The notes: generated from the letters alone by a model not told the origin. Shown: positions 475 through 54,916, counted from the stretch's first letter. The stretch is DNA of 56,143 nt from a virus (IMGVR_UViG_3300046660_000277:1-56143); one strand, 5' to 3'. Made by a program: numbers and translations.

Positions 475-505
475 ACGTTACGCCTCGGTATGTTTATTGT
501 CAACA
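475..505 (-). promoter_or_regulatory. Operator-promoter 1 (ctrA-like operon)
   Basis: Read on the minus strand, TGTTGACAATAAACA (505-491) contains a -35 TTGACA. After 17 bases comes TAACGT (480-475). The predicted start is near 468, leaving about 22 bases to the ATG of the ctrA-like gene. The -10 overlaps TTAA-N7-TTAC (467-481 on the plus strand), one base off the CtrA box consensus. Confidence 0.75.
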
Positions 506-506
506 T

Positions 507-1010
507 TCAAATCGCAAGAAAATGCGCGCGGCACCACGTTTTCGCTTCGTCGAGATTGTCGACGACCACGGTTGCGGCCATGCCAGCCACCATGAGGTCG
601 CGATGCGCCTCGAGCTGGGAATCACTCAGCGCGTCAACGATCCGCGCCGGCGCCCAGCCATTCGCGATCGCCTGCGCCCGCAATTCGAGGTGCAGAGGAC
701 TCCTTTTTTGCAGCGGGATTTTCTTCGCGTCGGGCCGTTTCCATTCCTGTCCGAACAAGAGTCCGAATGTCCCCTCGGTGAACCGAGTCGGCCGGAGGAA
801 CAAAAGATCATGGACACCTGCCCACACGCCCAATTCCTTAAGTCGCTTCCCTTCGAACGCGTCGCGCCGCTCGCCGCCGTTCGGCGTGTGCCAGAACTTG
901 ACACCAGGCGCGAGCGCGGGCGCTACGCGGGGCACGCCATCTCGACCGGGATTGCCGCGGAGCCAAATGACCATGGCTTTTTGGTACGCAAATTCGTCAG
1001 GCTTGGGCAT
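507..1010 (-). CDS. VRR-NUC family nuclease
   Basis: This 167-residue protein has the VRR-NUC core: FWHTPNGGERRD followed by a basic helix, LKELGVWAGVHDLLFL (Pro-Asp of the usual GVPDL replaced by His-Asp), and LHLELRA as the Glu-containing strand. VRR-NUC proteins belong to the PD-(D/E)XK group; they cut branched or flapped DNA and are common in phage replication modules, where they are thought to resolve intermediates. The start ATG overlaps the polymerase stop by one base (TAATG), so translation is probably coupled. It is the last gene of the leftward replication block. The family call is fairly secure, the exact substrate is unknown. Confidence 0.8.
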   Translation of the reverse strand: MPKPDEFAYQKAMVIWLRGNPGRDGVPRVAPALAPGVKFWHTPNGGERRDAFEGKRLKELGVWAGVHDLLFLRPTRFTEGTFGLLFGQEWKRPDAKKIPLQKRSPLHLELRAQAIANGWAPARIVDALSDSQLEAHRDLMVAGMAATVVVDNLDEAKTWCRAHFLAI

Positions 1011-3040
1011 TATTTCACCACCAGCTTCTCAGCAGCATCGATGTACCAATTGTAGTTCACTCTATCCCACGAAAAGTCCGACGCGCGACAACAATCCGCC
1101 ACCAGAAATCCCGCCTGCAATCCCTGCTCCCGCGTCTCATAACGAGATTTGTTCGCAGTGTGGATCCGCGGGTCGTGCGTCTCCGACGGCAGCGTTTGCA
1201 GCACGCCGTAATATTCCGCGTCCGTGATACTGTTTTTGCGCTTGTAGTGCCCGGCCGGTCCCTTCGGCGGCATCACCTTGCGCAGCGGAGCGCCGTCGGT
1301 CGCAATAAAGTAACGCAGGATGCGTTGCGTTTGCTTGTCACCGATCCACAGTTGCGACGAGCGATCGCATTTGGCGCGGCACATAAATAGAAACGGATCA
1401 TCGCACTCATGCACGACCCGCGCGATATCGGCGCCCGTGGTCATGTGCTCCACCGCGGCTTTGGTCGCGATCAGCGCGGAAAAATCCTTGTGCCAAGCGG
1501 GCGGGCTCGCGTTGGTGATGTCGTCGGGGAAGTTCTTGGGATACCAGAACCGCCCTTTTAACTTCAGTTTGCCCGAGGTCGCTGCCTTGGCGATGTAGTT
1601 GTTGACGTCGCCGATCCACATTGTCGAATACTCAACGTCCTCGAGCACCAGGCGCGTATAGGCCGCCCATGCGCGTTCGATCTCCTGCGCCGCGGGTAAG
1701 TTCGCCCTGGCAATCGTATAGGTGATGCCGTCCGTGTTTGCCTGCAGAAGCCGCACCGTCGGCACCGATAGCAGCCACTCCGCGAGCATGCAGAGCATCA
1801 ACTGGCCATTGATCGTGATCGCCATGGTGAAGCGCGGGTCGTAGAAAATCGAATGCTCGTTGTTCGAATTTCCATAGGTGCCATTGGCAGCGAGCTTGAA
1901 CGCGTTCGAGCGCGGCGTGCCCTTTTGATATCTGGCGCGCTCGATGGGGAGTTGCGAATACTCGAAAACAAAGCGCTCGCCGAGGTGTTCAGGATAGAGC
2001 CGGTTCACAATGGCAATTGCCGGATACAGGCCCGCAACGTCGATGTCGCGGATCATCGTGTCAGCGTCGGCGCGGACAACCTGCGACTCGACGCAAGCGT
2101 GAATGCCACCCGTGCCGAAATGGAAATCGAGTCCGCCGACGGTCGCGTGAACGTCCGAAAACACGCCCTTGGTCTTAAGCTTGCCGGTGACTTCGTCCTC
2201 GGTGATGGTCTGCGATCGCATCCACGTCAGGATGCGGGCAAATTCAGGATGCGAGAATCGGACGAACGGAAAGATGATATCGGATAGGGCGATCCGCTCG
2301 CGCCTGGTCTTGCGGGCTTCGCGGTAACCGTTCTCGCGGGTGTAACAGAGATCGTCGCCGAGCCGCTGTTCGAGGAGCTTCGAACCGATCTTGGAGTCTG
2401 ACCAGTTGAGCACGTCGCCGTCGAGGATGTCCTGCAATTCGATGCGAAACTTGATCGGGTCAAGCGAGATCAGGGCGAATTTCTTGGTTTCTTTGACGTC
2501 GTGGCGGCCGTAGGGCAACAGCACGCGGTCGATGTCAGGCGCCGCGATCGGCTGATCGAACGGCAGCGGCATCTCTAGGACCAACTCGGAACGCATGTTG
2601 ACCTCGAGTGCCTTCAGGCTGGTCATGCGGGCTTTGTTGTCGAAATGCCAGAGCTTCAAAAGATCGATCTGCGGCGCGAAGCGCTCGCTTTCCCAAACCA
2701 TCTTGAACATGGTCCGGTCGTGGATTTGCTCCTGCGCCTTCTCATAAATGTCCGCGTAACTGGCGCCGGGATTTTGCCAGAAGAAATGCAAGACGGGATA
2801 GTCGAACGCCAGGTTGTTGAACCCCACCATGGGTATGCGGTTCGCGTGCCAATATTCGATCCACGCCAGGATGAATTGCCGATCGTCGCGATACTCCGAT
2901 ATTTCGAACGTGGCCGACCAGTCGCCGAACAGCGCCGCGACTTCGATCGTAAAGCAATTGATCAGGGTTTCTTCGTCGTAGACGACGGCGCGTTGCAGGT
3001 CGTCGAGCGTGACCGGGATGCGTGGCGGACGCTCATACAC
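1010..3040 (-). CDS. Family B DNA polymerase with 3'-5' exonuclease
   Basis: This 676-residue polymerase shows the exonuclease motifs VYDEET (Asp22/Glu24), GFNNLAFDYP (Asn75/Asp80) and PYGRHD (Tyr177/Asp181). The polymerase motifs follow: A DIDVAGLYP (332-340), B FKLAANGTYG (381-390) and C QANTDGIT (433-440), a variant of the usual YxDTDS seen in some phage enzymes. All catalytic carboxylates look present, so proofreading and synthesis are both expected. It is short for a family B enzyme. The start is a GTG that overlaps the preceding DUF2493 gene by eight bases; the 3' end overlaps the nuclease gene. It is the likely replicative polymerase of the phage. Confidence 0.9.
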   Translation of the reverse strand: MYERPPRIPVTLDDLQRAVVYDEETLINCFTIEVAALFGDWSATFEISEYRDDRQFILAWIEYWHANRIPMVGFNNLAFDYPVLHFFWQNPGASYADIYEKAQEQIHDRTMFKMVWESERFAPQIDLLKLWHFDNKARMTSLKALEVNMRSELVLEMPLPFDQPIAAPDIDRVLLPYGRHDVKETKKFALISLDPIKFRIELQDILDGDVLNWSDSKIGSKLLEQRLGDDLCYTRENGYREARKTRRERIALSDIIFPFVRFSHPEFARILTWMRSQTITEDEVTGKLKTKGVFSDVHATVGGLDFHFGTGGIHACVESQVVRADADTMIRDIDVAGLYPAIAIVNRLYPEHLGERFVFEYSQLPIERARYQKGTPRSNAFKLAANGTYGNSNNEHSIFYDPRFTMAITINGQLMLCMLAEWLLSVPTVRLLQANTDGITYTIARANLPAAQEIERAWAAYTRLVLEDVEYSTMWIGDVNNYIAKAATSGKLKLKGRFWYPKNFPDDITNASPPAWHKDFSALIATKAAVEHMTTGADIARVVHECDDPFLFMCRAKCDRSSQLWIGDKQTQRILRYFIATDGAPLRKVMPPKGPAGHYKRKNSITDAEYYGVLQTLPSETHDPRIHTANKSRYETREQGLQAGFLVADCCRASDFSWDRVNYNWYIDAAEKLVVK

Positions 3041-3395
3041 GGGCCGGAATCTCCAATACCGGAACGCCCTTGGCGCGCGCCTGGCGCTTCATATCCGCCG
3101 TGCCGGCGCCTCCCGGAAACGCCACGACGAAATGCGGCCGACCGTCTCGCAGCATCTGCGCATTCCGGATCGGCCCGGCGGCGCGCGGATGGCTATCCCA
3201 ATCGGCCGGGAACGGCAGCACCGGAACGTTGCGCTTGTCCGCCCATTCGCCGGCAAGCGTGTCAGCGCCGCGCGCGCAGCCCTGAATGACGCACTCGAAC
3301 GCGCCGGCGCGGTGGTAGTGGTCGAGCACGCCGAACAGCAACTCGGCGTCCGTGAAGTCGCGACCGCCGCAAACTAGGACTCGATATCCTGGCAT
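3033..3395 (-). CDS. DUF2493 / YspA-type SLOG-family protein
   Basis: This 120-residue protein has the DUF2493 pattern: VLVCGGRDF at the N-terminus, GCARGADTLAGEWA in the middle, then GPIRNAQML and AFPGGAGTADMKRQA. The family belongs to the SLOG superfamily of Rossmann-like proteins that bind nucleotides or nucleotide-derived signals. It is frequent in phages, where its role is not established. It overlaps the polymerase start by eight bases and follows a tiny membrane peptide gene after three bases, so the three are probably one transcript. The family call is secure, the function unknown. Confidence 0.85.
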   Translation of the reverse strand: MPGYRVLVCGGRDFTDAELLFGVLDHYHRAGAFECVIQGCARGADTLAGEWADKRNVPVLPFPADWDSHPRAAGPIRNAQMLRDGRPHFVVAFPGGAGTADMKRQARAKGVPVLEIPARV

Positions 3396-3398
3396 GCC

Positions 3399-3497
3399 TC
3401 AGCCGCGAATTGCAGTGATCACGATCGCCAAGCAGATCAGCCCGACCCACCCGAACGGCGTGCAGAAAATCAGAACAATTGCGGTGCCGATGTCCAC
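3399..3497 (-). CDS. Tiny single-span membrane peptide, 32 aa
   Basis: A GTG start at 3497 has GAGGAG six bases upstream. The product is almost entirely hydrophobic (IVLIFCTPFGWVGLICLAIV), with one predicted transmembrane segment and a basic end. It sits three bases before the DUF2493 gene. The good ribosome site and tight spacing support a real gene. No family recognised. Confidence 0.5.
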   Translation of the reverse strand: MDIGTAIVLIFCTPFGWVGLICLAIVITAIRG

Positions 3498-3520
3498 GAT
3501 GGACTCCTCGGAAAATGAAA

Positions 3521-3576
3521 CCAACGACCGCGATGGCTCACAGGGCGAGAGGGCTTGCCCACATCGCGGTCGTTGG
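3521..3576. other. Long hairpin between the SSB gene and the polymerase block
   Basis: Arms CCAACGACCGCGATG (3521-3535) and its exact reverse complement (3562-3576) enclose 26 bases. The 15-bp stem is long for a factor-independent terminator and lacks a T-run on the minus-strand exit. It may be a processing, attenuation or protein-binding structure controlling read-through from the SSB gene to the polymerase genes. Confidence 0.6.
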
Positions 3577-3590
3577 TAACTGAAACAATT

Positions 3591-3642
3591 AGGCGCGGCG
3601 GCTGCAGGCAAACCCGAGGCCCACTCTCCCACCGCCGCGCCT
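3591..3642. other. Second hairpin directly after the SSB gene
   Basis: Arms AGGCGCGGCGG (3591-3601) and CCGCCGCGCCT (3632-3642) are perfect complements around a 30-base loop. It stands just past the stop of the minus-strand SSB gene and next to the longer hairpin at 3521-3576. Together they could reduce transcription into the polymerase block. Confidence 0.5.
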
Positions 3643-3658
3643 CTCCGGGTACCCCGTA

Positions 3659-4606
3659 CTAGCGGCCCGGGATCGGAGGCAGCCCACCGGGTAGCGGCGG
3701 AAGGCCGGCCGGCATGGTCATTGCGGGAGCCGGCGGCGGAGGCGCGGCGGCCGCGACTGGAGCGGCAGGCGGTGCCGGGGGCGGCGCTACGGGTGCAGCC
3801 GGCGGTGCCATCACGGCACCATTCGGCATGACCGTTTGCGCAGCGGTCGGCGGCAGCGTCGGAGCCGCGCCCTGCCCTGGCATGTTCGAATTCGCGACCG
3901 TCCCGGCCACGTTTCCGAACATCTGAGCCGCCGATTTCGGGCCGGCGTTGTTGCCGATTCGCTCGCCTTCGCGAGTGAACAGGAACCCGTCGAAACCGAA
4001 GTTGACGCCGAAAGTCTCGTTCTCGTAGGCATAGGCGTGGATGCAGGGGTAACCCCAATCGCCCGACTTGTACTGCTCGACTCCGTTGATCGACTTTGCG
4101 ACGATATCGACGACCTGACCACCGACGACCTTGGCGACCGCGATTTTGGTATCCGGCAGGAAATTCTCGGCTTCGACGATCCAGTAGCCGCGACGCCATT
4201 CGTTCTTTTTGGCGACCTCGACGGGATCCGGCAGCGGCTGACCGGGCTTCGGCTTCGACTGGAACGGAACGTCGCCATCCTTAACGTCGAACTGAGCGCC
4301 CGGAGGCCAAGCCCACTGGCCGGCGGCGTCGACGCTCTGCGGCCACATCTTGCGCGCCGCTTCGCACGCGATACCCCACAGGAACAGGTAGTTGGCGCAC
4401 TGATGCGGATCGTTCGACAGCTTCGGGAACATGAACGTGCCGCTGTAACGCGGGTTCGGCGTGCCGTCCTTCCTCGTGAAAAGGATTCCGGCGGCGTTCT
4501 TGGTGCGCTTCTCGTGGAAATAGGGATACGCCTGGCGGACTTCGCTCGGGCTGTTCTGCGGCGCGCTTCGTTCGTTACGCTTTTTGATGACGACGGGGGC
4601 ATTCAT
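3659..4606 (-). CDS. DUF2815-type single-stranded DNA-binding protein
   Basis: The chosen ATG (4606) has GGAG in its leader and gives 315 residues; a longer in-frame extension crosses the promoter and is rejected. The middle region carries DUF2815 features: DGTPNPRYSGTFMFPKL near residue 45, later SGDWGYPCIHAYAYENE and GVNFGFDGFLFTREGERIG. DUF2815 proteins are OB-fold, SSB-like proteins that occur beside DUF2800, polymerase and VRR-NUC genes in phages. That is the arrangement here. The last ~80 residues are Ala/Pro-rich and end in LPPLPGGLPPIPGR. This is a flexible tail like those by which SSBs recruit partners, but without the usual acidic tip. Confidence 0.75.
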   Translation of the reverse strand: MNAPVVIKKRNERSAPQNSPSEVRQAYPYFHEKRTKNAAGILFTRKDGTPNPRYSGTFMFPKLSNDPHQCANYLFLWGIACEAARKMWPQSVDAAGQWAWPPGAQFDVKDGDVPFQSKPKPGQPLPDPVEVAKKNEWRRGYWIVEAENFLPDTKIAVAKVVGGQVVDIVAKSINGVEQYKSGDWGYPCIHAYAYENETFGVNFGFDGFLFTREGERIGNNAGPKSAAQMFGNVAGTVANSNMPGQGAAPTLPPTAAQTVMPNGAVMAPPAAPVAPPPAPPAAPVAAAAPPPPAPAMTMPAGLPPLPGGLPPIPGR

Positions 4607-4641
4607 TGCGTGGTCTCCGGGGTTAAACGTTGAGTGCGGTA

Positions 4642-4671
4642 AACATACGCTTAGATTGTTTATTGTCAACA
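4642..4671 (-). promoter_or_regulatory. Operator-promoter 2 (SSB and replication block)
   Basis: The minus strand reads TGTTGACAATAAACA (671-657 of 4 kb), then 16 bases after TTGACA comes TATGTT (4647-4642). It lies between the GIY-YIG gene and the SSB gene and would drive the SSB and, by read-through, the polymerase genes. Confidence 0.75.
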
Positions 4672-4692
4672 ATGATTCTGCGGTGCGGCGCT

Positions 4693-6621: not shown

Positions 6622-6622
6622 T

Positions 6623-9244: not shown

Positions 9245-9904
9245 TCAGGCGACCGCGAGCGCCGTGGCGACCGCCGACAGCTTGTCGTCGGGCATCAGAC
9301 GGATTGCCGAAATCGTGTCGTCGAAGGTCGAACCGACGGTCACGATCGCGTAGGCGGGAGACGCCAGCCAGTCGACGAGCGCTTTCTTGGTGCTGTCGTC
9401 GCTGCCGCGCTGCTCGAGGTTGGCAATCACCTTGCCGGCCAGGATGCCGGACGGCGGCACGACAGGCGGAGCCGGAGGCGCCGGGGGTGCGGGAGGGGCC
9501 GGCGGCGGAGCGGCACGCTTCAGGTACTCCGGCACGTCACCGCCAGCGGCGGCATTCTGCGCGACCAGATCGGGGGCCGGAGCAGCGGGAGCGGGCGGCG
9601 TTGCACCCGGGATCGGCGCCGGCGGCGGAGCCTGTGCGCTCGCGGGGTCGGGTTGGTTCTTCTTCGGGCGACCCGGCTTCCGGGTAGTCTCGCCGGTCTG
9701 TTCGCCTGCGGTCTCGACCGTACCCGACCCCGCGAGCGCCGTGCTGCCTTCCGACAGACCCTTCACGACGATTTCCATGTCCTCGCCGAAAATCTTGGTC
9801 AGCAGGACGCTATCCTCGCCGATGTAGCCTGCGAGTTCTCGCAGAGATCCAAACTCCATTGCAGCTTCGATAGAAGCGCGCCGGAAAGTGACGTTCAAGC
9901 TCAT
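9245..9904 (-). CDS. Hypothetical protein with AT-hook-like motif and Pro/Ala linker, 219 aa
   Basis: The first ~60 residues form a likely globular domain. Then comes KPGRPKKNQ, an AT-hook-like GRP core in a basic setting. About 70 residues of Pro/Ala-rich low complexity (repeats of APPAPP) follow, and a C-terminal domain with DSTKKALVDWLASPAY and SAIRLMPDDKLSAVATAL. AT-hooks bind the minor groove of AT-rich DNA, so a nucleoid or origin-binding role is possible. It is the first gene after operator-promoter 3. Function unknown. Confidence 0.6.
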   Translation of the reverse strand: MSLNVTFRRASIEAAMEFGSLRELAGYIGEDSVLLTKIFGEDMEIVVKGLSEGSTALAGSGTVETAGEQTGETTRKPGRPKKNQPDPASAQAPPPAPIPGATPPAPAAPAPDLVAQNAAAGGDVPEYLKRAAPPPAPPAPPAPPAPPVVPPSGILAGKVIANLEQRGSDDSTKKALVDWLASPAYAIVTVGSTFDDTISAIRLMPDDKLSAVATALAVA

Positions 9905-9940: not shown

Positions 9941-9970
9941 ACAGTAAACACGCCATGTTCATTGTCAACA
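9941..9970 (-). promoter_or_regulatory. Operator-promoter 3 (leftward operon 9904 to 4693)
   Basis: The minus strand reads TGTTGACAATGAACA (9970-9956), and 16 bases after TTGACA stands TACTGT (9946-9941). Just downstream is a further palindrome TGTTGCAACA (about 9924-9933). The promoter drives the AT-hook gene and the whole coupled leftward string. Confidence 0.8.
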
Positions 9971-10132
9971 TAAATTCACGGTCGGATTGCAAAAAACTTC
10001 CCGAGTTGTGATTCGTTTTACATGCCACCAACGTTTTTTGTTTATTTGCAACACAAAAAAGAATTGACAACATTAATTCGCATGGCCAAGGATAGGGAGC
10101 GCGGTAAGACTTTTGACGTAGGAGAACAATCA

Positions 10133-10519
10133 GTGCCCAAGCGGAAAGCGCTTCAATCAATTGAAGAGTCGGTTTTTACCGAAGCCACATTGGCCGCAAT
10201 GGCGAAGGATCTTAAATCCAGGCGCCTCATGCTCGACCGCACGACGGTTTCGGACGATCTGGTCGTCGGCTTGCGCGCGCTCATCACCAAGGACGGCGTC
10301 GTAAATTACCACGCTTCTTATCATCTCGGCGACAAGCGCGGCTATTTGCGGCTCGGAGTGCTGGACCCGAAACATCCCGACCACATTTCCCTTTCGGACG
10401 CCAGAGAGTTGACCAAGACGATCAAGGCACTCGCCGCCAAAGGGATCGACCCGGAAGATGGCCTTCATAGGAGGCTCATACGAGAAATGCTCGAGAAGGG
10501 AACACGCTGGCGGCCCTGA
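10133..10519 (+). CDS. Stand-alone integrase arm-binding-domain (DUF4102-like) protein, copy 1
   Basis: GTG 10133 has TAGGAG eight bases upstream; in-frame Mets at 10022 and 10082 lack a ribosome site. The 128 residues contain VGLRALITKDGVVNYHASYHLGDKRGYLRLG, then SLSDARELTKTIKALAAKGIDP. That is the layout of the N-terminal arm-binding domain of DUF4102-type integrases, but there is no catalytic domain. It is a clear paralogue of 54535-54849, with FTxxTLxAMxxDLK, GLRA(L/I)ITxD and ARxLTxxIxAxAxxG(I/V)DP in common. It is divergent from operator-promoter 3. A weak -35 TTGACA at 10064-10069 may start it. A DNA-binding regulatory or Xis-like role is inferred. Confidence 0.7.
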   Translation: MPKRKALQSIEESVFTEATLAAMAKDLKSRRLMLDRTTVSDDLVVGLRALITKDGVVNYHASYHLGDKRGYLRLGVLDPKHPDHISLSDARELTKTIKALAAKGIDPEDGLHRRLIREMLEKGTRWRP

Positions 10520-10625: not shown

Positions 10626-10656
10626 TGTTGACTTTCAACATACGTGGCGGTACTGT
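10626..10656 (+). promoter_or_regulatory. Operator-promoter 4 (primase operon)
   Basis: TGTTGACTTTCAACA (10626-10640) with TTGACT as -35, 17-base spacer and TACTGT (10651-10656). The predicted start is at about 10663-10666, at the ATG of the following 51-codon gene, so its mRNA should be leaderless. Confidence 0.8.
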
Positions 10657-14454: not shown

Positions 14455-14485
14455 TGTTGACAGTCAGCATATAGCGGACTAGGTT
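14455..14485 (+). promoter_or_regulatory. Operator-promoter 5
   Basis: TGTTGACAGTCAGCA (14455-14469), TTGACA, 17-base spacer, TAGGTT (14480-14485). Drives the 78-codon gene at 14512. Confidence 0.7.
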
Positions 14486-15593: not shown

Positions 15594-15623
15594 TGTTGAC
15601 AGTCAACAAACGACGCTTATTGT
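15594..15623 (+). promoter_or_regulatory. Operator-promoter 6
   Basis: TGTTGACAGTCAACA (15594-15608), TTGACA, 16-base spacer, TATTGT (15618-15623). Leader of about 23 bases to ATG 15653. Confidence 0.8.
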
Positions 15624-16071: not shown

Positions 16072-16101
16072 TGTTGACAATCAACAAACGCTGTTTACAG
16101 T
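16072..16101 (+). promoter_or_regulatory. Operator-promoter 7
   Basis: TGTTGACAATCAACA (16072-16086), a perfect palindrome. TTGACA, 16-base spacer, TACAGT (16096-16101). Drives the small-gene operon starting at 16126. Confidence 0.8.
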
Positions 16102-18582: not shown

Positions 18583-18612
18583 TGTTGACAATCAGCATGG
18601 CGTGTTTACTGT
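18583..18612 (+). promoter_or_regulatory. Operator-promoter 8
   Basis: TGTTGACAATCAGCA (18583-18597), TTGACA, 16-base spacer, TACTGT (18607-18612). The predicted start (about 18619) coincides with ATG 18620, so the mRNA should be leaderless. Confidence 0.8.
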
Positions 18613-18619: not shown

Positions 18620-18838
18620 ATGGCTACTGGCGAAACAAAGAAACGGCTGTTGCTCTCGAAGTGGCGAACGCATCAGGAAGCCATGCAAGAGGACGTCGAC
18701 GGGCTCGCTTGGCAGGTTGAACAACTCGAAGCCGCGCTAACCGATGTGCGTTATTGGCTCCTGTCGGGGCTTGTACATCACCAATTGGTTTCTGATCCGC
18801 GGCAATTGCTGCGCAAGGTGGAAGATGCGCTGTCCTGA
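18620..18838 (+). CDS. Leaderless small hypothetical protein, 72 aa
   Basis: The ATG lies 37 bases after the start of operator 8, and no ribosome site precedes it. A helical, coiled-coil-like product (QEDVDGLAWQVEQLEAALTD). No family recognised. Confidence 0.65.
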   Translation: MATGETKKRLLLSKWRTHQEAMQEDVDGLAWQVEQLEAALTDVRYWLLSGLVHHQLVSDPRQLLRKVEDALS

Positions 18839-20112: not shown

Positions 20113-20318
20113 CCATCTGCTACGCGCGCCCCGAGCGCCACGACCCGCACACGATCCGTTGCGCCGTCTGCCGTCTGGCGTGGGACATCGACGACCCGAT
20201 CGCGCCGAGTTGCCCCAAGCAGGTTACAGTGGCGTGCCCGCCTGCCCCGCCCCTCGCGCCCGAGCGGCTTCCGTTCGCCTCCGGCCTGCCGTTTGTTGAC
20301 TTTCAACATAAACGCTGA
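20109..20318 (+). CDS. Small zinc-finger-like protein whose end is coded by operator 9, 69 aa
   Basis: CAVCRLAWDIDDPIAPSCPK resembles a small zinc finger. The final residues PFVDFQHKR are encoded by operator-promoter 9 (20294-20324), so the C-terminus is shaped by the DNA element. No family recognised. Confidence 0.55.
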   Translation: MTICYARPERHDPHTIRCAVCRLAWDIDDPIAPSCPKQVTVACPPAPPLAPERLPFASGLPFVDFQHKR

Positions 20319-22702: not shown

Positions 22703-22733
22703 TGTTGACAATGAACATTCGTTGTTTCATTGT
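22703..22733 (+). promoter_or_regulatory. Operator-promoter 10
   Basis: TGTTGACAATGAACA (22703-22717), TTGACA, then CATTGT (22728-22733) after 17 bases. The predicted start coincides with ATG 22740, giving a leaderless mRNA. Confidence 0.75.
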
Positions 22734-24913: not shown

Positions 24914-24945
24914 TGTTGACAGTGAACATTGAGGCCGCGTAGGGT
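24914..24945 (+). promoter_or_regulatory. Operator-promoter 11
   Basis: TGTTGACAGTGAACA (24914-24928), TTGACA, then TAGGGT (24940-24945) after 18 bases. The start ATT/GTG gene 24968 follows with GGAGAT in the leader. Confidence 0.65.
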
Positions 24946-25431: not shown

Positions 25432-25743
25432 ATGCAGAACCCCATCGTCTCAAAAATCCTCGCCTTGGCCGACCGCGGACAATCTGCGGACGCAATCGCT
25501 GCGGCCGTCGAGCGCTCCGCCGGCTACGTCTATTCGGTCCTCCGGGAGCACAGGCCCGATCGGCCGCGCAAGGTCCACAAGACGCGTTCTGATTTACCTC
25601 GGAAGATTGCGGCGCTGCATTTGGCGGGGAAAGAGACGGTCGCGATCGCGGAGAAGCTGGCGGTGTCGCGGGCATATGTCTATCGCCACTTGCCGCGCGG
25701 GCGGGAGGGGGCAATACTGCCGCCCTGCCCTGTGCGGCTGTAA
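25432..25743 (+). CDS. Tandem helix-turn-helix protein, 103 aa
   Basis: Two helix-turn-helix units are visible, at ~5-40 (SADAIAAAVERSAGYVYSVL) and ~58-90 (TVAIAEKLAVSRAYVYRHL), both resembling transposase/regulator HTHs. The C-terminus is GAILPPCPVRL, another variant of the CPVPLP ending. A regulator is likely. Confidence 0.7.
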   Translation: MQNPIVSKILALADRGQSADAIAAAVERSAGYVYSVLREHRPDRPRKVHKTRSDLPRKIAALHLAGKETVAIAEKLAVSRAYVYRHLPRGREGAILPPCPVRL

Positions 25744-26257: not shown

Positions 26258-26288
26258 TGTTGACTTTCAACACATCGTTTGCCATCCT
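26258..26288 (+). promoter_or_regulatory. Operator-promoter 12
   Basis: TGTTGACTTTCAACA (26258-26272), TTGACT, 17-base spacer, CATCCT (26283-26288, weak). The predicted start coincides with ATG 26295, giving a leaderless mRNA. Confidence 0.7.
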
Positions 26289-26999: not shown

Positions 27000-27030
27000 T
27001 GTTGACAATCACCATACGATGATGTAAATA
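27000..27030 (+). promoter_or_regulatory. Operator-promoter 13 (packaging and head genes)
   Basis: TGTTGACAATCACCA (27000-27014), TTGACA, 17-base spacer, TAAATA (27025-27030). The leader to ATG 27076 is about 39 bases. It probably drives terminase, portal, MuF and scaffold. Confidence 0.75.
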
Positions 27031-32287: not shown

Positions 32288-32318
32288 TGTTGACTTTCAA
32301 CATAAAGTCTGGTAGCGT
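32288..32318 (+). promoter_or_regulatory. Operator-promoter 14 (coat gene) with long leader
   Basis: TGTTGACTTTCAACA (32288-32302), TTGACT, 17-base spacer, TAGCGT (32313-32318). The leader to ATG 32453 is ~128 bases, by far the longest here. It contains GGGC-GTGAT-GCCC followed by TTTT (32354-32370), a possible attenuator or mRNA-stabilising stem. The coat gene thus has its own, controllable transcript. Confidence 0.75.
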
Positions 32319-32452: not shown

Positions 32453-33583
32453 ATGTCCAATACCCTGACCACGCTTGCGCCGACTCTGTTTTCGGCGGCC
32501 AAAAAAGTCGCTGCGGAGCCGTTCGGCGTCGTCGGCGCGATCAATACCTCGTTCGACGACAAGGGCGTTGCCAAGGGCGACAATGTGTCCGTCGATGTCG
32601 CGCCGACCCGCGCCGCTGCCGATTTCACCCCCGGCGCGACGACCTCGACCGGCGACGACTCGACCGGTGCCAAGATCGACGTCACGATCACCAAGAGCCG
32701 CAAGGTCTCCTGGCATCTGACCGGCGAACAGCAGCGCTCGCTTGCGAATGCGACGATTGATCAGGACTGGGTTTCCCAGCTCGTTCAGCAGGGCATGCGT
32801 ACCCTCCGCAACGAGTGTGAAGTCGATGCCGCGGTTGCAGTCAAGGTCGGTGCGTCCCGCGCCTACGGCATCGCGGGCACTGCGCCGTTCGCCACCGATC
32901 TGACCGCGCTGACCAATGCGCGCAAGATCCTCGTGGACAACGGCGCGCCCAAGGCCGACCTCCAGATGGTGTTCGACACGACCGCCGGTCTCAACCTGCG
33001 CAACCTCGGCGTCCTGCAGAATGCCTATCAGGCTGGTGGCGATGCCGAGCGCCGGAGCGGTGAGTTCCTGCCGCAGATGGGTTTCCGTCTGTCGGAGTCG
33101 GCCGGTATCGGTCTGCACACCCCCGGCACGGGCGCCGGTCATCTGATCAACAACGGTGCCGGCTATAGCATCGGCTCCACCGCCCTCACGGTCGACACCG
33201 GCACCGGCACCATTCTGCCCGGTGACGTGATCACCATCGCGGGCGACGCCAACAAGTACGTTGTCGTTTCCGCGCTCGCGGCGAACGTCGTGACCATCGG
33301 CGCCCCCGGTCTGCGCAAGGCCGCGGCTGACAACGCCGCGTTCTCGTACACGACCGCCTACACCGCCAACCTCGCGTTCGAGCGCAACGCGGTCGTCGGC
33401 GTCCTCCGCCCGCCGATCATGCCCCCGAACCCGACCATCGATCAGATGCTCGTGTCGGACGACAAGGGTATGACCTACCTGATGCTCCAGATCGCGCAGT
33501 ACGGTCAGCTCTCTTGGGAACTGCATCTGGCCTGGGGCTTCAAGACGATCAACGGCGAGTTCTCGGCAATCGTCCTCGGCTGA
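32453..33583 (+). CDS. Major capsid protein, P22 coat-like
   Basis: This 376-residue protein has the P22 coat layout: helical N-arm (SNTLTTLAPTLFSAAKKVA), strand-rich section with SWHLTGEQQRSLANA, DNGAPKADLQMVFDTTAGL, an insertion domain with VDTGTGTILPGDVITI, and a hydrophobic C-terminus. GGAGAATTC precedes the ATG. P22-like coats adopt the HK97 fold. Well supported by position and sequence. Confidence 0.88.
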   Translation: MSNTLTTLAPTLFSAAKKVAAEPFGVVGAINTSFDDKGVAKGDNVSVDVAPTRAAADFTPGATTSTGDDSTGAKIDVTITKSRKVSWHLTGEQQRSLANATIDQDWVSQLVQQGMRTLRNECEVDAAVAVKVGASRAYGIAGTAPFATDLTALTNARKILVDNGAPKADLQMVFDTTAGLNLRNLGVLQNAYQAGGDAERRSGEFLPQMGFRLSESAGIGLHTPGTGAGHLINNGAGYSIGSTALTVDTGTGTILPGDVITIAGDANKYVVVSALAANVVTIGAPGLRKAAADNAAFSYTTAYTANLAFERNAVVGVLRPPIMPPNPTIDQMLVSDDKGMTYLMLQIAQYGQLSWELHLAWGFKTINGEFSAIVLG

Positions 33584-36077: not shown

Positions 36078-36083
36078 CCTTAT

Positions 36084-36114
36084 GTTGACTTTCAACATAC
36101 ATCGTGCTACCCAT
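36084..36114 (+). promoter_or_regulatory. Operator-promoter 15 (tail genes)
   Basis: TGTTGACTTTCAACA (36084-36098), TTGACT, 17-base spacer, TACCCA (36109-36114). The predicted start coincides with ATG 36120, implying a leaderless tail transcript. Confidence 0.75.
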
Positions 36115-45178: not shown

Positions 45179-45209
45179 TGTTGACTTTCAACATATGTGT
45201 TGCTACACT
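45179..45209 (+). promoter_or_regulatory. Operator-promoter 16 (tailspike)
   Basis: TGTTGACTTTCAACA (45179-45193), TTGACT, 17-base spacer, TACACT (45204-45209). Gives the spike gene its own transcript with a ~24-base leader. Confidence 0.8.
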
Positions 45210-47915: not shown

Positions 47916-47946
47916 TGTTGACTTTCAACATAAATCATGCCACGGT
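47916..47946 (+). promoter_or_regulatory. Operator-promoter 17 (lysis cassette)
   Basis: TGTTGACTTTCAACA (47916-47930), TTGACT, 17-base spacer, CACGGT (47941-47946). The predicted start coincides with ATG 47953; the lysis transcript should be leaderless. Confidence 0.75.
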
Positions 47947-47952: not shown

Positions 47953-48039
47953 ATGGTCAAATGGTGCGAGCAAAACCCGGTTAAAGCGGCCCTTTGGCTC
48001 GCCGCGGCGTTGCTGTTCGCCTTCTCGGTGACGTTATGA
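47953..48039 (+). CDS. Leaderless tiny membrane protein, pinholin or holin candidate, 28 aa
   Basis: The ATG is 37 bases after the start of operator 17. The product is a charged N-terminus (MVKWCEQNPVK) and one hydrophobic helix (AALWLAAALLFAFSVTL). It overlaps the endolysin start. Its place at the head of the lysis cassette suggests it times lysis, which is inference. Confidence 0.55.
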   Translation: MVKWCEQNPVKAALWLAAALLFAFSVTL

Positions 48040-49591: not shown

Positions 49592-49851
49592 TTCCCCTCT
49601 CGTCATCTGAAATCCAGCACATCGCAAACGAGACGGCCAAGGCCGCGGTACGCGATACGCTGCTCGCAATGGGCGTTGACGTGAGCGATCCCAAGTCGAT
49701 TCAGGAAATGCAGTACGACATGGCGCACGTTCGCCGCTGGCGAAAGAGCGTCGAGACAGTGCAGCGCCAAAGCCTGATTACTGCACTCGGCATCGTCGTG
49801 TCCGGTATTGCCGGTGCCATTTGGATGGCGATTTCCATGAAGGGGCACTGA
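49588..49851 (+). CDS. Small membrane protein (DUF6127-like), 87 aa
   Basis: N-terminal helices (IANETAKAAVRDTLLAMGVD; MAHVRRWRKSVETVQRQ) and a C-terminal hydrophobic helix (LITALGIVVSGIAGAIWMAI). Similar proteins are found in phage lysis regions; a holin-like function is possible. Overlaps both neighbours. Confidence 0.65.
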   Translation: MIPLSSSEIQHIANETAKAAVRDTLLAMGVDVSDPKSIQEMQYDMAHVRRWRKSVETVQRQSLITALGIVVSGIAGAIWMAISMKGH

Positions 49852-51080
49852 TGGCCGGTCCGCGGCTTTCCGACGAACTGGCCCAGGCTGCGGCGGACGC
49901 GTGCCGCGCGGATCACGGCAAGATCACGCAGGCGACCGCAAACCGCCTCGGGATGCCACTGGCGACCTACAAAAGCCGAGTCAAGGTCGCATCCGAGCGC
50001 GGAATGCTGCTCGACATACCGCCCGCAATGCCAGGCTACCGCGTGGCGCAACTCACCACCCTGCCCGATGGCAAACAATCAATCCAGCAAAAGCCCGATC
50101 ACGGCGAGGAATTCGCCGTTCCCGCCGGCCACATGGTCAAAGGCGTTTCGGCGCTGGTGGATCCCGACGGCCGCGAGATCGTCAAGTGGATCAAAACCAG
50201 CCAGGACGCCGAGCAGCGCGACGCCGCGATGCGGGCCGTGGTCGAGGGGTTCAAGTCCGACATTCCGCGCGCCGAACCTGTGCCAGCACCAGCCGGCCGC
50301 AACTCAGACCTGCTCAACCAATACACCGTCACCGACCTGCATTTCGGCATGCTGGCGTGGCGCGAGGAAACCGGCGCCGACTACGATCTGAAAATCGCCG
50401 AACAGCTCCTACTTGATTGGTTCGCCGCGGCTATTCGCCAGTCGCCGGACGCCGCCACCGCGATCCTGTGTCAGCTCGGTGATCTCTTGCACCATGACGC
50501 GCACGAGAGTGTCACGCCGGCACACAGGAACGTCCTCGACGCGGATTCGAGACTGCAAAAAATGATTCGCGTGGTCATCCGCACCATGCGTCGCATCGTG
50601 GCGATGTTGCTCGAGAAACACGAGCGCGTCCACGTCATCATGGCCGACGCCAACCACGACCCGGCCGGCGGCGCCTGGCTGCGCGAGATGTTCGCGGCGT
50701 TCTTCGAGAACGAGCCGCGCGTGACGGTAGACACCAGCCCGAGCACCTACAACATGTTCGAGCACGGCGAAACTTCGCTGTTCTATCACCATGGGCACAA
50801 GCGCAAGATTGCCACGGTCGACAGCGTGTTCGCGGGCAAGTTCCGCGAAGCCTACGGGCGGACCAAATTCAGCTACGCGCATTTGGGGCACTTGCACAGC
50901 GACGAACTGAAATCCACTAATCTGATGAAGGTCGAGCGGCACGAAACGCTCGCTGGCCCAGATGCCTACGCGGCGAACGGCGGCTGGCTATCCGGCCGCT
51001 CCGCCAAAGTCATCACGTACAGCAAGCGGTTCGGCGAAGTTGGCCGGATCACCCTGACCCCTGAGATGGTGCAAAGCTGA
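49851..51080 (+). CDS. Phage metallophosphoesterase with N-terminal helix-turn-helix
   Basis: A 409-residue protein. Residues ~10-55 look like a small winged helix. The calcineurin-like domain has TVTDLHFGMLAW (Asp162, His164), CQLGDLLHHD, MADANHDPAGG, FYHHGHKRK and YAHLGHLHSDE, i.e. all metal ligands. Such phage proteins are often labelled oxidoreductase or DNA repair exonuclease; a nuclease or phosphodiesterase is likely. ATG 49851 overlaps the previous stop. Confidence 0.82.
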   Translation: MAGPRLSDELAQAAADACRADHGKITQATANRLGMPLATYKSRVKVASERGMLLDIPPAMPGYRVAQLTTLPDGKQSIQQKPDHGEEFAVPAGHMVKGVSALVDPDGREIVKWIKTSQDAEQRDAAMRAVVEGFKSDIPRAEPVPAPAGRNSDLLNQYTVTDLHFGMLAWREETGADYDLKIAEQLLLDWFAAAIRQSPDAATAILCQLGDLLHHDAHESVTPAHRNVLDADSRLQKMIRVVIRTMRRIVAMLLEKHERVHVIMADANHDPAGGAWLREMFAAFFENEPRVTVDTSPSTYNMFEHGETSLFYHHGHKRKIATVDSVFAGKFREAYGRTKFSYAHLGHLHSDELKSTNLMKVERHETLAGPDAYAANGGWLSGRSAKVITYSKRFGEVGRITLTPEMVQS

Positions 51081-51298
51081 TGGCGAACAACGTGAACGAC
51101 ATCCTCCCGCCGGGTTGGTCAGCCTGGCCAATGAACGACCGTGAGTGGGCGCGCGGCGCCGTGCCGATCCCGAGCCCGCTCCGCACCCATATCGGCTGCA
51201 ACGTCACGACCTGCCCGAACGGCAAATGCCGGGCGATTGGCGAGTGCATCAATCTTGAGGCGCAGCGCGCCGAACAAGCGAGGCAGAACCGTGGGTAA
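51080..51298 (+). CDS. Small Cys-containing hypothetical protein, 72 aa
   Basis: HIGCNVTTCPNGKCRAIGEC has four cysteines in a short span, a likely metal site. Starts at the last base of the previous stop; overlaps the next GTG. Function unknown. Confidence 0.6.
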   Translation: MANNVNDILPPGWSAWPMNDREWARGAVPIPSPLRTHIGCNVTTCPNGKCRAIGECINLEAQRAEQARQNRG

Positions 51299-51644
51299 TC
51301 TCCCGCAGCGCCAACGCCTGATCGACGCCGACAGCGCGACCCGCAAGACGTTCCCCATGGCGGCCGGCCTGCTCGACTACTTCCCCGATGCCCTCGCCGA
51401 GGTCTCACGCATCTCCTACCTCGGCAACCAGAAGCACAATCCCGGCGAACCGCCGCACCACGCCCGCGGCAAGTCCGTGGATCACGCGGACTGCATCGTG
51501 CGGCATCTGGTCGGCCGCGGCGGGTTCGACGGTGAGTTGCGCGAAAGCGCCGCCCTTGCCTGGCGAGCACTCGCGCTGTTGCAGGAGGAATTGGAACGCG
51601 AGATGGGGTTGCCGCTTCCTCGTGGCGCTCGCGCGCCGGAGTAA
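51291..51644 (+). CDS. dATP/dGTP diphosphohydrolase N-terminal domain-like protein, 117 aa
   Basis: Has KTFPMAAGLLDYFPDALAEV, ISYLGNQKHNPGEPPHHARG and KSVDHADCIVRHLVGRG, then ALAWRALALLQEELERE. This is the all-alpha pattern of phage dATP/dGTP diphosphohydrolase N-terminal domains (PF18909), related to MazG. Such enzymes adjust dNTP pools or support base modification. GTG overlaps the previous stop. Confidence 0.78.
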   Translation: MGNLPQRQRLIDADSATRKTFPMAAGLLDYFPDALAEVSRISYLGNQKHNPGEPPHHARGKSVDHADCIVRHLVGRGGFDGELRESAALAWRALALLQEELEREMGLPLPRGARAPE

Positions 51645-51650
51645 GAAAAA

Positions 51651-51668
51651 GGCCGCATTTGCGCGGCC
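51651..51668 (-). terminator. Terminator between convergent transcripts
   Basis: GGCCGC (51651-51656) and GCGGCC (51663-51668) form a GC stem. On the minus strand it is followed by TTTTTC, a proper terminator for the 51858 gene. It may also slow the rightward late transcript. Confidence 0.7.
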
Positions 51669-51678
51669 CGACACTTCC

Positions 51679-51858
51679 TTAGCTCGTGTGATTGTCCCAA
51701 TCCACCCGCACGCCTACCGCCGTCGCCAGGGCCTCGAACTGGACATAGAGCCGATTCCGTCTGGCCCTGTCGTCCACCATCTCAGTCGCCATTGCCATCA
51801 CGGTTCGCACCGCGAACCCGTCATCTTCCTTGGTCTTAGCCGCCCGCCCGCTGCTCAT
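51679..51858 (-). CDS. Small hypothetical protein, 59 aa, divergent from the XRE gene
   Basis: ATG 51858 has AGGA seven bases upstream (GTG 51864 is an alternative). The product is mostly helical (VMAMATEMVDDRARRNRLYV). Divergent from the XRE regulator across a repeat-rich gap, it has the position of a cro- or anti-repressor-like gene, but no HTH is seen. Confidence 0.55.
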   Translation of the reverse strand: MSSGRAAKTKEDDGFAVRTVMAMATEMVDDRARRNRLYVQFEALATAVGVRVDWDNHTS

Positions 51859-51869
51859 TTTCACTTCCT

Positions 51870-51974
51870 AAGTTCCTCAAGGTTGCATTTTCGGAACTTT
51901 TCAGTTCCTAATAGTAAGTAAATACCTTGAACGAATTTTGGTCAACAAAGAACTCATTTTATTCAGTCCGGACT
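51870..51974. promoter_or_regulatory. Candidate immunity operators
   Basis: The AT-rich gap holds repeated AGTTCCT-type elements: AAGTTCCT (51870-51877), the inverted repeat GGAAC-6-GTTCC (51893-51908), and AAGAACT near 51949. A 10-bp palindrome AGTCCGGACT lies at 51965-51974. These differ from the genome-wide TGTTGA operators and may be bound by the XRE protein. Confidence 0.45.
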
Positions 51975-52050
51975 AATACGGATGCCATCCATGGAACGGG
52001 GCGTTCCTAAAATGATAAGCAGAAAGCGCAATTTGGGGCGAAAACTACGC

Positions 52051-52416
52051 ATGCCTATAAATAGATTACACGGCTGCCAAGCACGGGCGGCGCGGGCCAT
52101 GCTGACGTGGTCAGTGCGCCAGCTCGCGCAGCAATCGGGCATCAGCGAAAGTTCGATTCGACGGATCGAATCCGAGTTCGGCGTGCCGGAGAATGTTACC
52201 TTAGACCTTCTGACCCGGCTCCGTGAATTCTACGAAGGTAAGGGGTTCACGTTTACGTTCGAGCCGGACCCCGGCGTGACATGGCGCCGGAAGGAACGGC
52301 GACGCGGCGATCGGCGTGGTCCTGGCGGTGGTGACATGGAAGCGGCCGGCATCGTGACGGATGTGATTGCCGTGATCCCGATGGTTTTCATTGATCGCGA
52401 CATTGGCACCGTTTGA
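52051..52416 (+). CDS. XRE-family regulator, lysogeny repressor candidate, 121 aa
   Basis: HTH at ~17-42: RAMLTWSVRQLAQQSGISES then SIRRIES, of the type common in alphaproteobacterial prophages. The C-terminus FTFEPDPGVTWRRKERRRGD is basic and lacks a RecA-sensitive peptidase domain. Start uncertain: ATG 52051 suits the family, but ATGs at 51982, 51991 and 52012 are in frame. Adjacent to repeats and integration genes. Confidence 0.65.
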   Translation: MPINRLHGCQARAARAMLTWSVRQLAQQSGISESSIRRIESEFGVPENVTLDLLTRLREFYEGKGFTFTFEPDPGVTWRRKERRRGDRRGPGGGDMEAAGIVTDVIAVIPMVFIDRDIGTV

Positions 52417-52594
52417 GGCAAACGCGTATGGGAATTTTCGCAACCCCGTTGTGCAACTTTATCCCGACGCCGCCCGGCCGGCTTGAACAATCGTGCTGTA
52501 ATGTGGAGAACGGAATGGCGACAGGAATTGCAAACCGCTCTGCAAACCGGTCTTTCCGTTCTCATTCCGTTTCGAGCTAAGTTCTTGATTTCGT

Positions 52595-52647
52595 TGGCGC
52601 GCTCGGAGAGATTCGAACTCCCGACCCTCGGAATCGAAATCCGATCT
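52595..52647 (-). other. attP: Phage attachment site (attP): 3' part of a tRNA-Arg(UCG)
   Basis: The minus strand (52647 to 52595) reads as the anticodon arm, variable loop, T arm and acceptor 3' strand of a tRNA ending CCA. The anticodon stem TCGGA/TCCGA encloses TTTCGAT (anticodon TCG, Arg). The T loop is GTTCGAATC. No 5' half precedes it, so it is not a tRNA gene. Such fragments beside an integrase restore the host tRNA after integration. Confidence 0.8.
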
Positions 52648-52712
52648 TTTTGCAACAATATCAAATAGATGTTTGCAAACCGATATGATTTCGAGCGATT
52701 GTTTTCGTTTAG

Positions 52713-53849
52713 CTATTCGGCCGACTGCAAACCAATTTCGAAAGCTTCGCGCATGGCCATGGCCTGTTCTGCCAGCTCGAATTTGCCGCCGAGGTAGTGC
52801 GCCTGCAAGATGCGCTCGACGTCCTTGAGGCTGTGACCGGTGAACCCGGCGATCTGCGGCACTGTGCAGCCGGCCAGCGCCAGGCGCGTCACAGCGGTGC
52901 CCCGGAGGTCGTTGAACCGCGGCATGTCCTCTGCGGCGGCTCGGTCGCACGCCTTCCCCCACGACGTCCGGAAACCGTCTTCGGTCCATTTCTGGCCGCG
53001 GGTGTTGCGGAGGATTGCGCCCTCGGCTTTCTCGGGCTTGCGGGCGTCCAATTCGGCTTTGAGCACGGATCCCACCGGGAGCAGAACCCGGGCCTTTCGC
53101 TTGCCCTGACGAAGCCGGATATGCGCGCCGTCGTATTGCTGCCAGGTGAGCTTGATCAGGTCGCCCTGCCGCTGGCCAGTCCACAGGGCGAGCACGAGCG
53201 CGAACCACAGTTCGTCGGGCGCGGTCGCGCCGAACGCCTTGATGTGCTCGGGTTGCCAGATGACCTCGGCTCGGTCGACCTCATAGAGCCGGCCGCCGCG
53301 CTCACAGACGTTGACGGAGATCGTGCCGCGGTCCTTGGCCACCGATAGCACGCGCGCGAGCACGCCCCATGCGTAATCGGCCTGGCGATCGCCAGCAATC
53401 GGCGCGACCTCTCCTGCTTTCTTCATCTCTGCACGTTCTTTTGCGCTCAGCGGTTCAGTTGCGGCGATGCCATCACGCCAGGATTTGAATTCGCCTCGCG
53501 TCTCCGTCTTTACGACCAGTACCAACGGAAGCGTTCCGAATTCCTGTTCGATCAGGTCGAGAAAACGCACATAATCTTTCTTTGTGCGAGGTGCGAGTTT
53601 TGTGTATTCGCTCGTAGCCTTATAAGCGGCGATCAAAGAGAAAAGTGTTCCTTGCGTCGGCTTCTTCCGGTCCTCGACCAGTTTGGAATATACCGGGACG
53701 AAATCGGTATCGCCCGGCTTCAACGGCGTGTCGTCCGCAGATTTGATGAGTGGTCCACCTCGCCAAGCGTAGAAATATTTTCGCTTGGTGCCGTCCGCGA
53801 GCGTCTTACTTGCGGAGGCCAACCCCGGCAACACTTTTGCGCGCCTCAT
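52713..53849 (-). CDS. int: Tyrosine integrase
   Basis: This 378-residue recombinase has an N-terminal region with TKRKYFYAWRGGP, a SAM-like core-binding domain, and the catalytic domain. The active-site residues are Arg227 (WTGQRQGD), Arg316 (FNDLRGTAV), His339 (GFTGHSLKD) and Tyr352 (AHYLGG). The first residue of the usual HxxR box is Asn313 instead of His. It lies 66 bases from the attP fragment. It should integrate the phage at a tRNA-Arg gene. It overlaps the Xis-like gene. Confidence 0.9.
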   Translation of the reverse strand: MRRAKVLPGLASASKTLADGTKRKYFYAWRGGPLIKSADDTPLKPGDTDFVPVYSKLVEDRKKPTQGTLFSLIAAYKATSEYTKLAPRTKKDYVRFLDLIEQEFGTLPLVLVVKTETRGEFKSWRDGIAATEPLSAKERAEMKKAGEVAPIAGDRQADYAWGVLARVLSVAKDRGTISVNVCERGGRLYEVDRAEVIWQPEHIKAFGATAPDELWFALVLALWTGQRQGDLIKLTWQQYDGAHIRLRQGKRKARVLLPVGSVLKAELDARKPEKAEGAILRNTRGQKWTEDGFRTSWGKACDRAAAEDMPRFNDLRGTAVTRLALAGCTVPQIAGFTGHSLKDVERILQAHYLGGKFELAEQAMAMREAFEIGLQSAE

Positions 53850-54084
53850 TCTGCACCTTCCATTCGGCGAGCGTCATTTCTTGACCATCAGGCACGACTG
53901 ACGGTGCAACAATTCCGGACGCCTTGTCTAGCGCCAGATCAATGGCTTTTCGGTCCCATCGACGACCAATCGCCGCCTTGGGCATTGCGCCATCTGCGAC
54001 CCACTTTGACCATGTGGCCGGTGTCACGCCGCAATAGGCGGCGGCTTCGGATCCGGACATGAGGCGGGGCGCGAGCGTGGTCAC
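53806..54084 (-). CDS. Xis/AlpA-like helix-turn-helix protein, 92 aa
   Basis: MSGSEAAAYCGVTPATWSKW followed by GAMPKAAIGRRWDRKAID is the winged-helix layout of excisionase/AlpA (MerR-like) proteins. Overlapping the integrase start by 44 bases, it is probably the directionality factor. GTG start overlaps the upstream stop. Confidence 0.75.
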   Translation of the reverse strand: MTTLAPRLMSGSEAAAYCGVTPATWSKWVADGAMPKAAIGRRWDRKAIDLALDKASGIVAPSVVPDGQEMTLAEWKVQNEARKSVAGVGLRK

Positions 54085-54302
54085 TGTTCGTCACCTTTGA
54101 TGGCGACGCCGCCCATGATCGACGCAATCCCGCGCATTGCTTCGCGCATGCTCAGAATATCCGAACGATGACGTGCGATCACGAGATCGACATGATAGTT
54201 TCGTAGACGTTCGATTTCGCCAGTCGGGATATCGGGGTATCGACTTGCCCAGTTTTCGGCACTACGATTGATCTCAGCGAGTTTTTCGGTGAGCGTGGTC
54301 AC
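54081..54302 (-). CDS. Small hypothetical protein, 73 aa
   Basis: GTG 54302 overlaps the previous stop (TGTGACC). Helical (LTEKLAEINRSAENWASRYP; LVIARHRSDILSMREAMRGI). No family recognised; in the integration operon. Confidence 0.6.
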   Translation of the reverse strand: MTTLTEKLAEINRSAENWASRYPDIPTGEIERLRNYHVDLVIARHRSDILSMREAMRGIASIMGGVAIKGDEQ

Positions 54303-54538
54303 AGTAGTTTCACCGTTGACCAATCGATCGACTGCTTTCGAAATTCTGTCGCTGTCAAACCTCGACAGTTCAGGCGAATGAACCTCTCAACAATAACGTT
54401 GACTCGCCCGCGCGAAATTCCGAATTCACTGCCGACTGTGGTCATGTTGCCGCGCTCGTGGTACGCGCGAGAAACTTCCATCCGGCGTTTCGCCTGCTCT
54501 AATCGTTTCGCTTGCGTTGCTGGCTTGATCGACATCAC
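54299..54538 (-). CDS. Small helix-turn-helix protein, 79 aa
   Basis: Residues ~28-58 (ERGNMTTVGSEFGISRGRVN then VIVERFIRL) form a helix-turn-helix of sigma-like type. GTG/ATG start overlaps the arm-domain gene stop. A regulator or accessory of integration. Confidence 0.65.
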   Translation of the reverse strand: MMSIKPATQAKRLEQAKRRMEVSRAYHERGNMTTVGSEFGISRGRVNVIVERFIRLNCRGLTATEFRKQSIDWSTVKLL

Positions 54539-54849
54539 GCCGCCTCCAACGACGCAATGTAACCGCGACGCATGTCCTTGACCGGATCGACGCCCGTTGC
54601 CGCGATGGCCAGGATCTTTGTCGTCAGCACGCGAGCGCGCTCAATCGAGATTTCGTCGAGGGTGCCGAGGCTGAGAAAAGGACGTTCCTCCCCGACGCCG
54701 TAGCGCACGTGGAGAGTGATTGTGTCGCGCGTGATGATTGCGCGGAGCCCTTCTACTTTGTCGTCGTTTGCGATCGAACGATGCAACTTGAAGCGCTTGA
54801 GATCGCGCTGCATTGCGACAAGGGTTTCGACAGTGAAGATGTTCGACAT
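54535..54849 (-). CDS. Stand-alone integrase arm-binding-domain protein, copy 2
   Basis: A 104-residue paralogue of 10133-10519. It shares FTVETLVAMQRDLK, VEGLRAIITRD and ARVLTTKILAIAATGVDP with it, and consists only of the DUF4102-type arm-binding fold (LHVRYGVGEERPFLSLGTLD). First gene of the integration operon, directly after operator-promoter 18. It may bind arm-type sites or the dispersed operators; inference. Confidence 0.72.
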   Translation of the reverse strand: MSNIFTVETLVAMQRDLKRFKLHRSIANDDKVEGLRAIITRDTITLHVRYGVGEERPFLSLGTLDEISIERARVLTTKILAIAATGVDPVKDMRRGYIASLEAA

Positions 54850-54886
54850 GGGGAGTTACCTTTCCCGTTGGTGTTTCAATGCGCCT

Positions 54887-54916
54887 ACAATAAGCACTGT
54901 ATGTTGATTGTCAACT
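54887..54916 (-). promoter_or_regulatory. Operator-promoter 18 (integration operon)
   Basis: The minus strand reads AGTTGACAATCAACA (54916-54902). TTGACA, 16-base spacer, TATTGT (54892-54887). Drives the second arm-domain gene through to the integrase. Confidence 0.8.

Follow-up and report, generated by a model that had tools for sequence, protein, structure and literature searches.

The viral contig analyzed here (the window; an IMG/VR record of 56,143 bases) carries copies of a short DNA element dispersed along its length, and the question raised by this arrangement is whether the copies are promoters, operators or both, and which protein reads them. A sequence-only reading had listed 18 copies of a 15-bp palindrome, proposed that each is itself a promoter, and suggested that one repressor could silence the whole prophage, to be checked by a motif search on this and related phages. 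That search, with the element TGTTGAnnnTCAACA, returned exactly 18 matches at one mismatch or fewer in the 56-kb genome, where 0.07 were expected, and equivalents were found in two relatives, G030 and G043. None of 100 shuffled sequences gave the TGTTGANNNTCAACA match set (mean of 0.07 compared to 18 observed at one mismatch or fewer in the 56,143-base window), and at three mismatches or fewer TGTTGANNNTCAACA had 42 matches in the window compared to 13.9 expected. Seventeen of the listed positions are correct, and the one given as 36084 should read 36083. A nineteenth copy, TGTTTATTTGCAACA at 10039, was absent from the list; it has two mismatches and lacks a -10.

Element copies as promoters

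TTGAC occupies the -35 place in all 18 listed copies and is aimed at the next gene on the same strand (gene calls were made with our own script and are approximate), and the minus-strand copies at 491, 4657, 9956 and 54902 are reversed, both as had been described. The copies fall into two sub-classes. Class A, TGTTGACTTTCAACA, comprises seven copies that are identical across all 15 bp, have a spacer of 17 bp, and serve mostly structural, lysis and primase operons. Class B, resembling TGTTGACARTSARCA, comprises 11 copies with a spacer of mostly 16 or 17 bp. Outside the element and the -10, the copies share no related sequence.

On the minus strand, all sites are of class B. The site at 491..505 (TGTTGACAATAAACA; -10 TAACGT at 17 bp) precedes a ctrA-like gene and, beyond the contig junction, the genes that follow it (counterparts at 66466 in G030 and 60377 in G043); that at 4657..4671 (TATGTT at 16) precedes the genes from g5 (ssDNA-binding/annealing) to DNA polymerase (G030 60348, G043 55966); that at 9956..9970 (TACTGT at 16) precedes the leftward early operon from g10 to the exonuclease gene g6 (G030 55530, G043 51849); and that at 54902..54916 (TATTGT at 16) precedes the g63-HTH-xis-int operon. 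Class B sites on the plus strand lie at 14455..14469 (TAGGTT at 17), 15594..15608 (TATTGT at 16), 16072..16086 (TACAGT at 16), 18583..18597 (TACTGT at 16; G030 43714, G043 40551), 22703..22717 (CATTGT at 17; helicase operon g28-g29; G030 41017, G043 37768), 24914..24928 (a weak TAGGGT at 18; operon with a double-HTH protein; G030 37596, G043 33331) and 27000..27014 (TAAATA at 17; g33-terminase-portal operon). The class A sites, all on the plus strand with the -10 at 17 bp, lie at 10626..10640 (TACTGT; primase/helicase-like g12), 20294..20308 (TACCGT), 26258..26272 (CATCCT), 32288..32302 (TAGCGT; coat protein g38), 36083..36097 (TACCCA; tail genes from g44 on; G030 23000, G043 18479), 45179..45193 (TACACT; g54, a putative tail fibre) and 47916..47930 (CACGGT; lysis genes; G030 9439, G043 5774). 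The site-bearing operons thus include those for early functions (recombination/replication), late functions (terminase, coat, tail), lysis and integration, in agreement with the sequence-only reading.

A -10 of the form TAnnnT at a spacer of 16 or 17 bp follows 12 of the 18 sites, whereas the rate is 0.9% among random positions and 0.7% among the 136 TTGAC occurrences elsewhere in the genome. The relatives display the same arrangement in 13 of 20 copies (G030) and 13 of 17 (G043). Further evidence comes from the start codons. In five of the 18 cases (18583, 22703, 26258, 36083 and 47916), an ATG lies exactly 23 bases past the 15-mer, at 18620, 22740, 26295, 36120 and 47953, respectively, a coincidence with a probability of about 1e-4 after correction for 30 offsets. 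Counted from the A of these ATGs, the TTG of the element falls at -35, and RpoD motifs in Caulobacter begin at -34 to -37 from the start site (PMC4287350). Given that the ATG coincides with the predicted transcription start, messages from these five sites should be leaderless, and the ATG positions independently indicate that these promoters are genuine. These data support the elements as sigma-70-type promoters, as judged by sequence. A stoperator reading of the elements was rejected on account of their -10 boxes, and the contrast with stoperators drawn earlier is strongly supported.

We also noticed that the predicted leaderless frame at 47953-48039 encodes a 28-residue membrane-like peptide whose stop overlaps the endolysin ATG (ATGA), possibly a coupled holin-like peptide.

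The phage and its host

The ends of the window (1-108 and 56036-56143) share 108 bp at 95% identity, and a CtrA-like response regulator is split between them (3-446 and 55720-56139, both on the minus strand), which makes a circular or circularly permuted genome probable. The 95% identity of the ends suggests assembly from strain variants. A tyrosine integrase (52713..53849, minus strand; PF00589, E 1e-11) is encoded downstream of the site at 54902, and together with an excisionase-like HTH protein, also encoded in the window, it indicates that the phage is probably temperate. Four repeats resembling TGCAAACCG at 52529-52736 flank a stretch that by eye resembles a tRNA 3' end (about 52600-52655), and this region is a probable attP with integrase arm sites. 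These arm-type repeats (TGCAAACCG; 52529, 52541, 52674 and 52726) were considered as instances of the same motif and rejected for the window element; TTTGCAAA occurs in the arm-type repeats and also in the G030/G043 element.

The CtrA-like protein suggests that the host is most likely an alphaproteobacterium. Its receiver is very close to that of Brucella CtrA (4qpj, E 3e-47), and G030 carries an ortholog of the gene. The phosphoacceptor region departs from IILLDLNLPDM and one residue of the acidic pocket is changed (EAD for EDD), implying that the protein may act without phosphorylation. At 467-481, a CtrA-box-like sequence, TTAATCAAACGTTAC, which differs from TTAA-N7-TTAA by one mismatch, overlaps the -10 belonging to the promoter of the ctrA-like gene itself. 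Near matches to the CtrA box number just two across the window, which is no excess, and CtrA was rejected as a regulator common to the sites. A search for terminase relatives in GTDB genomes found none. In the coat-protein gene, the DNA at 32453-33583 is 73% identical to two Synechococcus phages; within the 25 kb tested, this stretch is the sole match to any phage record.

Relatives and candidate regulators

The candidate that we favor as the regulator is the product of g11 (10133..10519, plus strand), a protein of 128 aa consisting of an arm-type DNA-binding domain only (PF13356, E 1e-6; 29.1 bits, above the curated cut-off of 27), lacking the catalytic domain that a tyrosine integrase carries on the same protein. 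The AlphaFold model (pLDDT 77.7, pTM 0.70) retrieved 3ju0 (E 3e-4), 3rmp and 3jtz as its top three Foldseek matches, with probability 1.00, and these were the only confident matches, consistent with a predicted arm-type fold. P4-like integrases bind attP arm sites through this fold, and we know of no arm-type domain that acts as a stand-alone repressor. A paralog, g63 (54535..54849, minus strand; 45% identical, PF13356 score of 25.7 bits, just below the cut-off), is the first gene of the integration operon.

Proteins of the window and of G030 and G043 are mostly 35-70% identical, and the three phages are syntenic. DNA-polymerase and terminase searches supplied relatives, most of which lack the element: it was not found in G006, G009, G032, G036 or G037, nor in the Synechococcus and Rhizobium phages compared. 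With the window sequences alone, g11, g63 and the double-HTH protein had no matches in the phage, plasmid, viral and genome collections, and matches were reached only after a family search (PF13356) of relatives' records. Among the 44 records in that search, one, G030 (83.8 kb), had a stand-alone arm-type protein orthologous to g11, adjoining the same divergent neighbor g10, and this phage carries 20 copies of an element resembling TGTTGACTTTTTGCAAA. A blind scan of IMG/VR with the G030-type element gave one further multi-copy phage, G043 (66.4 kb), with about 17 equivalent promoters, and it too encodes a g11 ortholog. The arm-type profile detected the orthologs in G030 (E 5e-67) and G043 (E 3e-63), which are 50-51% identical to g11, and none in 28 further records that had entered the set through motif matches at chance level; a protein-led scan returned the same two records only. 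The exact 17-mer TGTTGACTTTCAACATA had nine single, chance-level matches in IMG/VR, in records without g11. By itself, the co-occurrence of g11 with the element is a weak argument, since G030 and G043 are close kin (DNA 72-95% identical over many stretches) and share most genes with the window; the three phages are in effect two lineages. The G030 contig also yielded no PF00589 integrase, which leaves lysogeny uncertain for that phage.

Matching promoters in the relatives precede ctrA, g5, g10, g24, g28, the double-HTH operon, g44 and the lysis genes, and they keep TGTTGACT but have the spacer half TTTTTGCAAA in place of the window's TTTCAACAT. The palindrome emphasized by the sequence-only reading is consequently a feature of the window element and not a shared one, as the second half in the relatives is not the inverted repeat of TGTTGACT, a point against the favored reading. 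Conservation, measured as information content, extends over TG-TTGAC, the -10 and the spacer half, the last of which reads TCAACATA in the window but TTTTTGCAAA in both relatives. Sigma-70 does not require a particular spacer sequence, and the conserved, lineage-specific spacer half is therefore likely to be the trace of a second DNA-reading protein, a phage-encoded regulator, as is also suggested by conservation of the promoter set in two relatives. Two proteins, g11 and the double-HTH protein, are encoded in all three phages, as such a shared regulator would be.

We favor g11 for its position between divergent promoters, for its own promoter without a full element copy and for the operator-like copy upstream. 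It is the only gene between the leftward early promoter at 9956 and the rightward promoter at 10626, reminiscent of lambda, in which cI is located between PL and PR. The divergent gene g10 (9245..9904, minus strand) encodes a proline-rich protein, and this gene order is conserved in G030 and G043. Rather than a full element copy, g11 seems to have a promoter of its own, with ATTGACA at 10062 but lacking a clear -10, and the two-mismatch copy at 10039..10053 lies 9 bp before this -35 (TTGACA, 10063). Operator-like copies without a -10 precede g11 in all three phages (G030 55438, G043 51781). On this analysis, we put the candidacy of g11 as the lysogeny repressor at about even odds.

The same regulon might instead be read by the double-HTH protein (25432..25743, plus strand; HTH_23, HTH_38), as a Cro-like repressor or an activator in lytic growth, which we consider unlikely. 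It has two HTH units and co-occurs with the element as well as g11 does: among 35 records, strong-scoring orthologs (41-43% identical) came from G030 and G043 only, and in each of the three phages a site drives the operon that contains it. However, a gene behind a site would be switched off as long as the prophage is silent; a lytic-phase role therefore fits it better than that of lysogeny repressor, and its gene has no operator-only copy. A repressor beside attP is common among temperate phages, and an Xre/HTH_3-type protein (51982..52416, plus strand; PF01381) adjoins int/attP, has an ortholog in G030, and has a promoter region with no full site, only a half-site, GTCAACA, near 51942. Against this protein as lysogeny repressor, a search of G043, where the regulon is present, did not find it (although that 66.4-kb contig may be incomplete), and its promoter region contains a separate inverted repeat, GGAACTTTTCAGTTCC (about 51894), that looks like its own operator; we regard this assignment as quite unlikely. 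The interval between g61 and the HTH_3 gene (51862-52010) holds GGAACTTTTCAGTTCC along with several TTCCTAA repeats and is probably a separate local operator.

It is also conceivable that no phage repressor is involved. The CtrA-like regulator encoded by the phage demonstrates that links to host control exist, and a host transcription factor binding the element could couple the phage to host physiology. The spacer half, however, is constant within each phage and differs between the window and G030/G043, and other relatives lack the element, making a host factor improbable. Alternatively, there may be no regulator, the copies being strong promoters or a recently spread cassette whose spacer half reflects common descent. 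While the identity of the seven class A copies would fit such a cassette, the flanks outside the element and -10 are unrelated between copies, syntenic copies persist at about 50% protein identity with their own spacer half in each lineage, and the operator-like copies before g11 have no -10 in any of the three phages; we find this explanation very improbable.

Proposed mechanism and comparison with known systems

The reading that we favor overall, that of sigma-70 promoters with built-in operators through which a phage protein, preferably g11, silences all sites, has in our estimation an even chance of being correct. Each site would be a sigma-70-type promoter with an operator spanning the -35 and the adjacent spacer half, and jointly the sites would account for transcription of nearly every unit of a temperate phage whose host is most likely an alphaproteobacterium. 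A phage DNA-binding protein on the element would exclude RNA polymerase at all sites at once, silencing early, late, lysis and integration genes together and keeping the prophage silent, and upon its loss all operons would become available. The operator copy before g11 suggests autoregulation. Repression is inferred because the element overlaps the -35 and the -35 sequences are good, and activation is also conceivable. Thus, of the earlier proposal of one repressor silencing the whole prophage, the genome-wide operator-promoter set, conserved in two relatives, is strongly supported, and the sign of regulation and the identity of the regulator remain matters of inference. The more specific proposal is that an integrase arm-type domain freed from its recombinase acts as a master repressor covering the -35 of nearly every promoter, that its paralog g63 has a second role, and that operator and repressor diverge together between phages; we hold this tentatively, at somewhat less than an even chance.

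In many well-studied temperate phages, silencing takes place at a few early promoters. In the window phage, nearly all recognizable promoters, late and lysis promoters among them, share an operator, and the plan is kept across diverged phages with one operator half changed. With nearly every transcription unit starting at an element copy, one viral protein, perhaps of an unusual kind akin to an integrase segment, could turn the entire virus on or off. The three-phage series is natural material for following a repressor and about 20 operators changing together. Should g11 prove to be the repressor, a DNA-reading domain would be common to integrases and repressors as a source of immunity specificity; we know of no description of immunity specificity derived from an integrase arm domain, and a master repressor of the arm type would be new. 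In predicted fold and PF13356 match, g11 resembles the P4-like integrase arm domain (3ju0, 3jtz, 3rmp), but g11 lacks the catalytic domain, occupies an immunity-like position and is not next to int. A possible parallel is the Streptomyces phage phiC31, which belongs to another host group; conserved inverted repeats, dispersed over its early and late loci in large number, serve there as operators that one repressor binds.

L5-type sites are short and asymmetric. In the Cluster A mycobacteriophages (L5/Bxb1), 20-30 sites per genome, most of them not at promoters, stop elongation, are oriented with transcription, and have a motif that varies between related phages along with the repressor (PMC6550527). 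The window shares with them dispersed copies of one short motif (18, and one at two mismatches, slightly under 20-30) and orientation with transcription (18/18), but not the promoter-distant, elongation-blocking trait, as only the copy at 10039 lacks a -10. P1 has 22 dispersed C1 operators (PMC8546580), and the window resembles it in having about 20 operators at promoters and spread over the genome, which in P1 answer to a single repressor. In P1, the operator spans 17 bp, is asymmetric (ATTGCTCTAATAAATTT; PMC8546580) and does not resemble the window element. When the candidate regulators were scanned with Pfam, g11 matched integrase arm domains. Given the precedents of P1 C1, the L5 stoperators and phiC31, the dispersed-operator plan is itself known; the new parts are the promoter at every site, the lineage-specific spacer half and the arm-type candidate.
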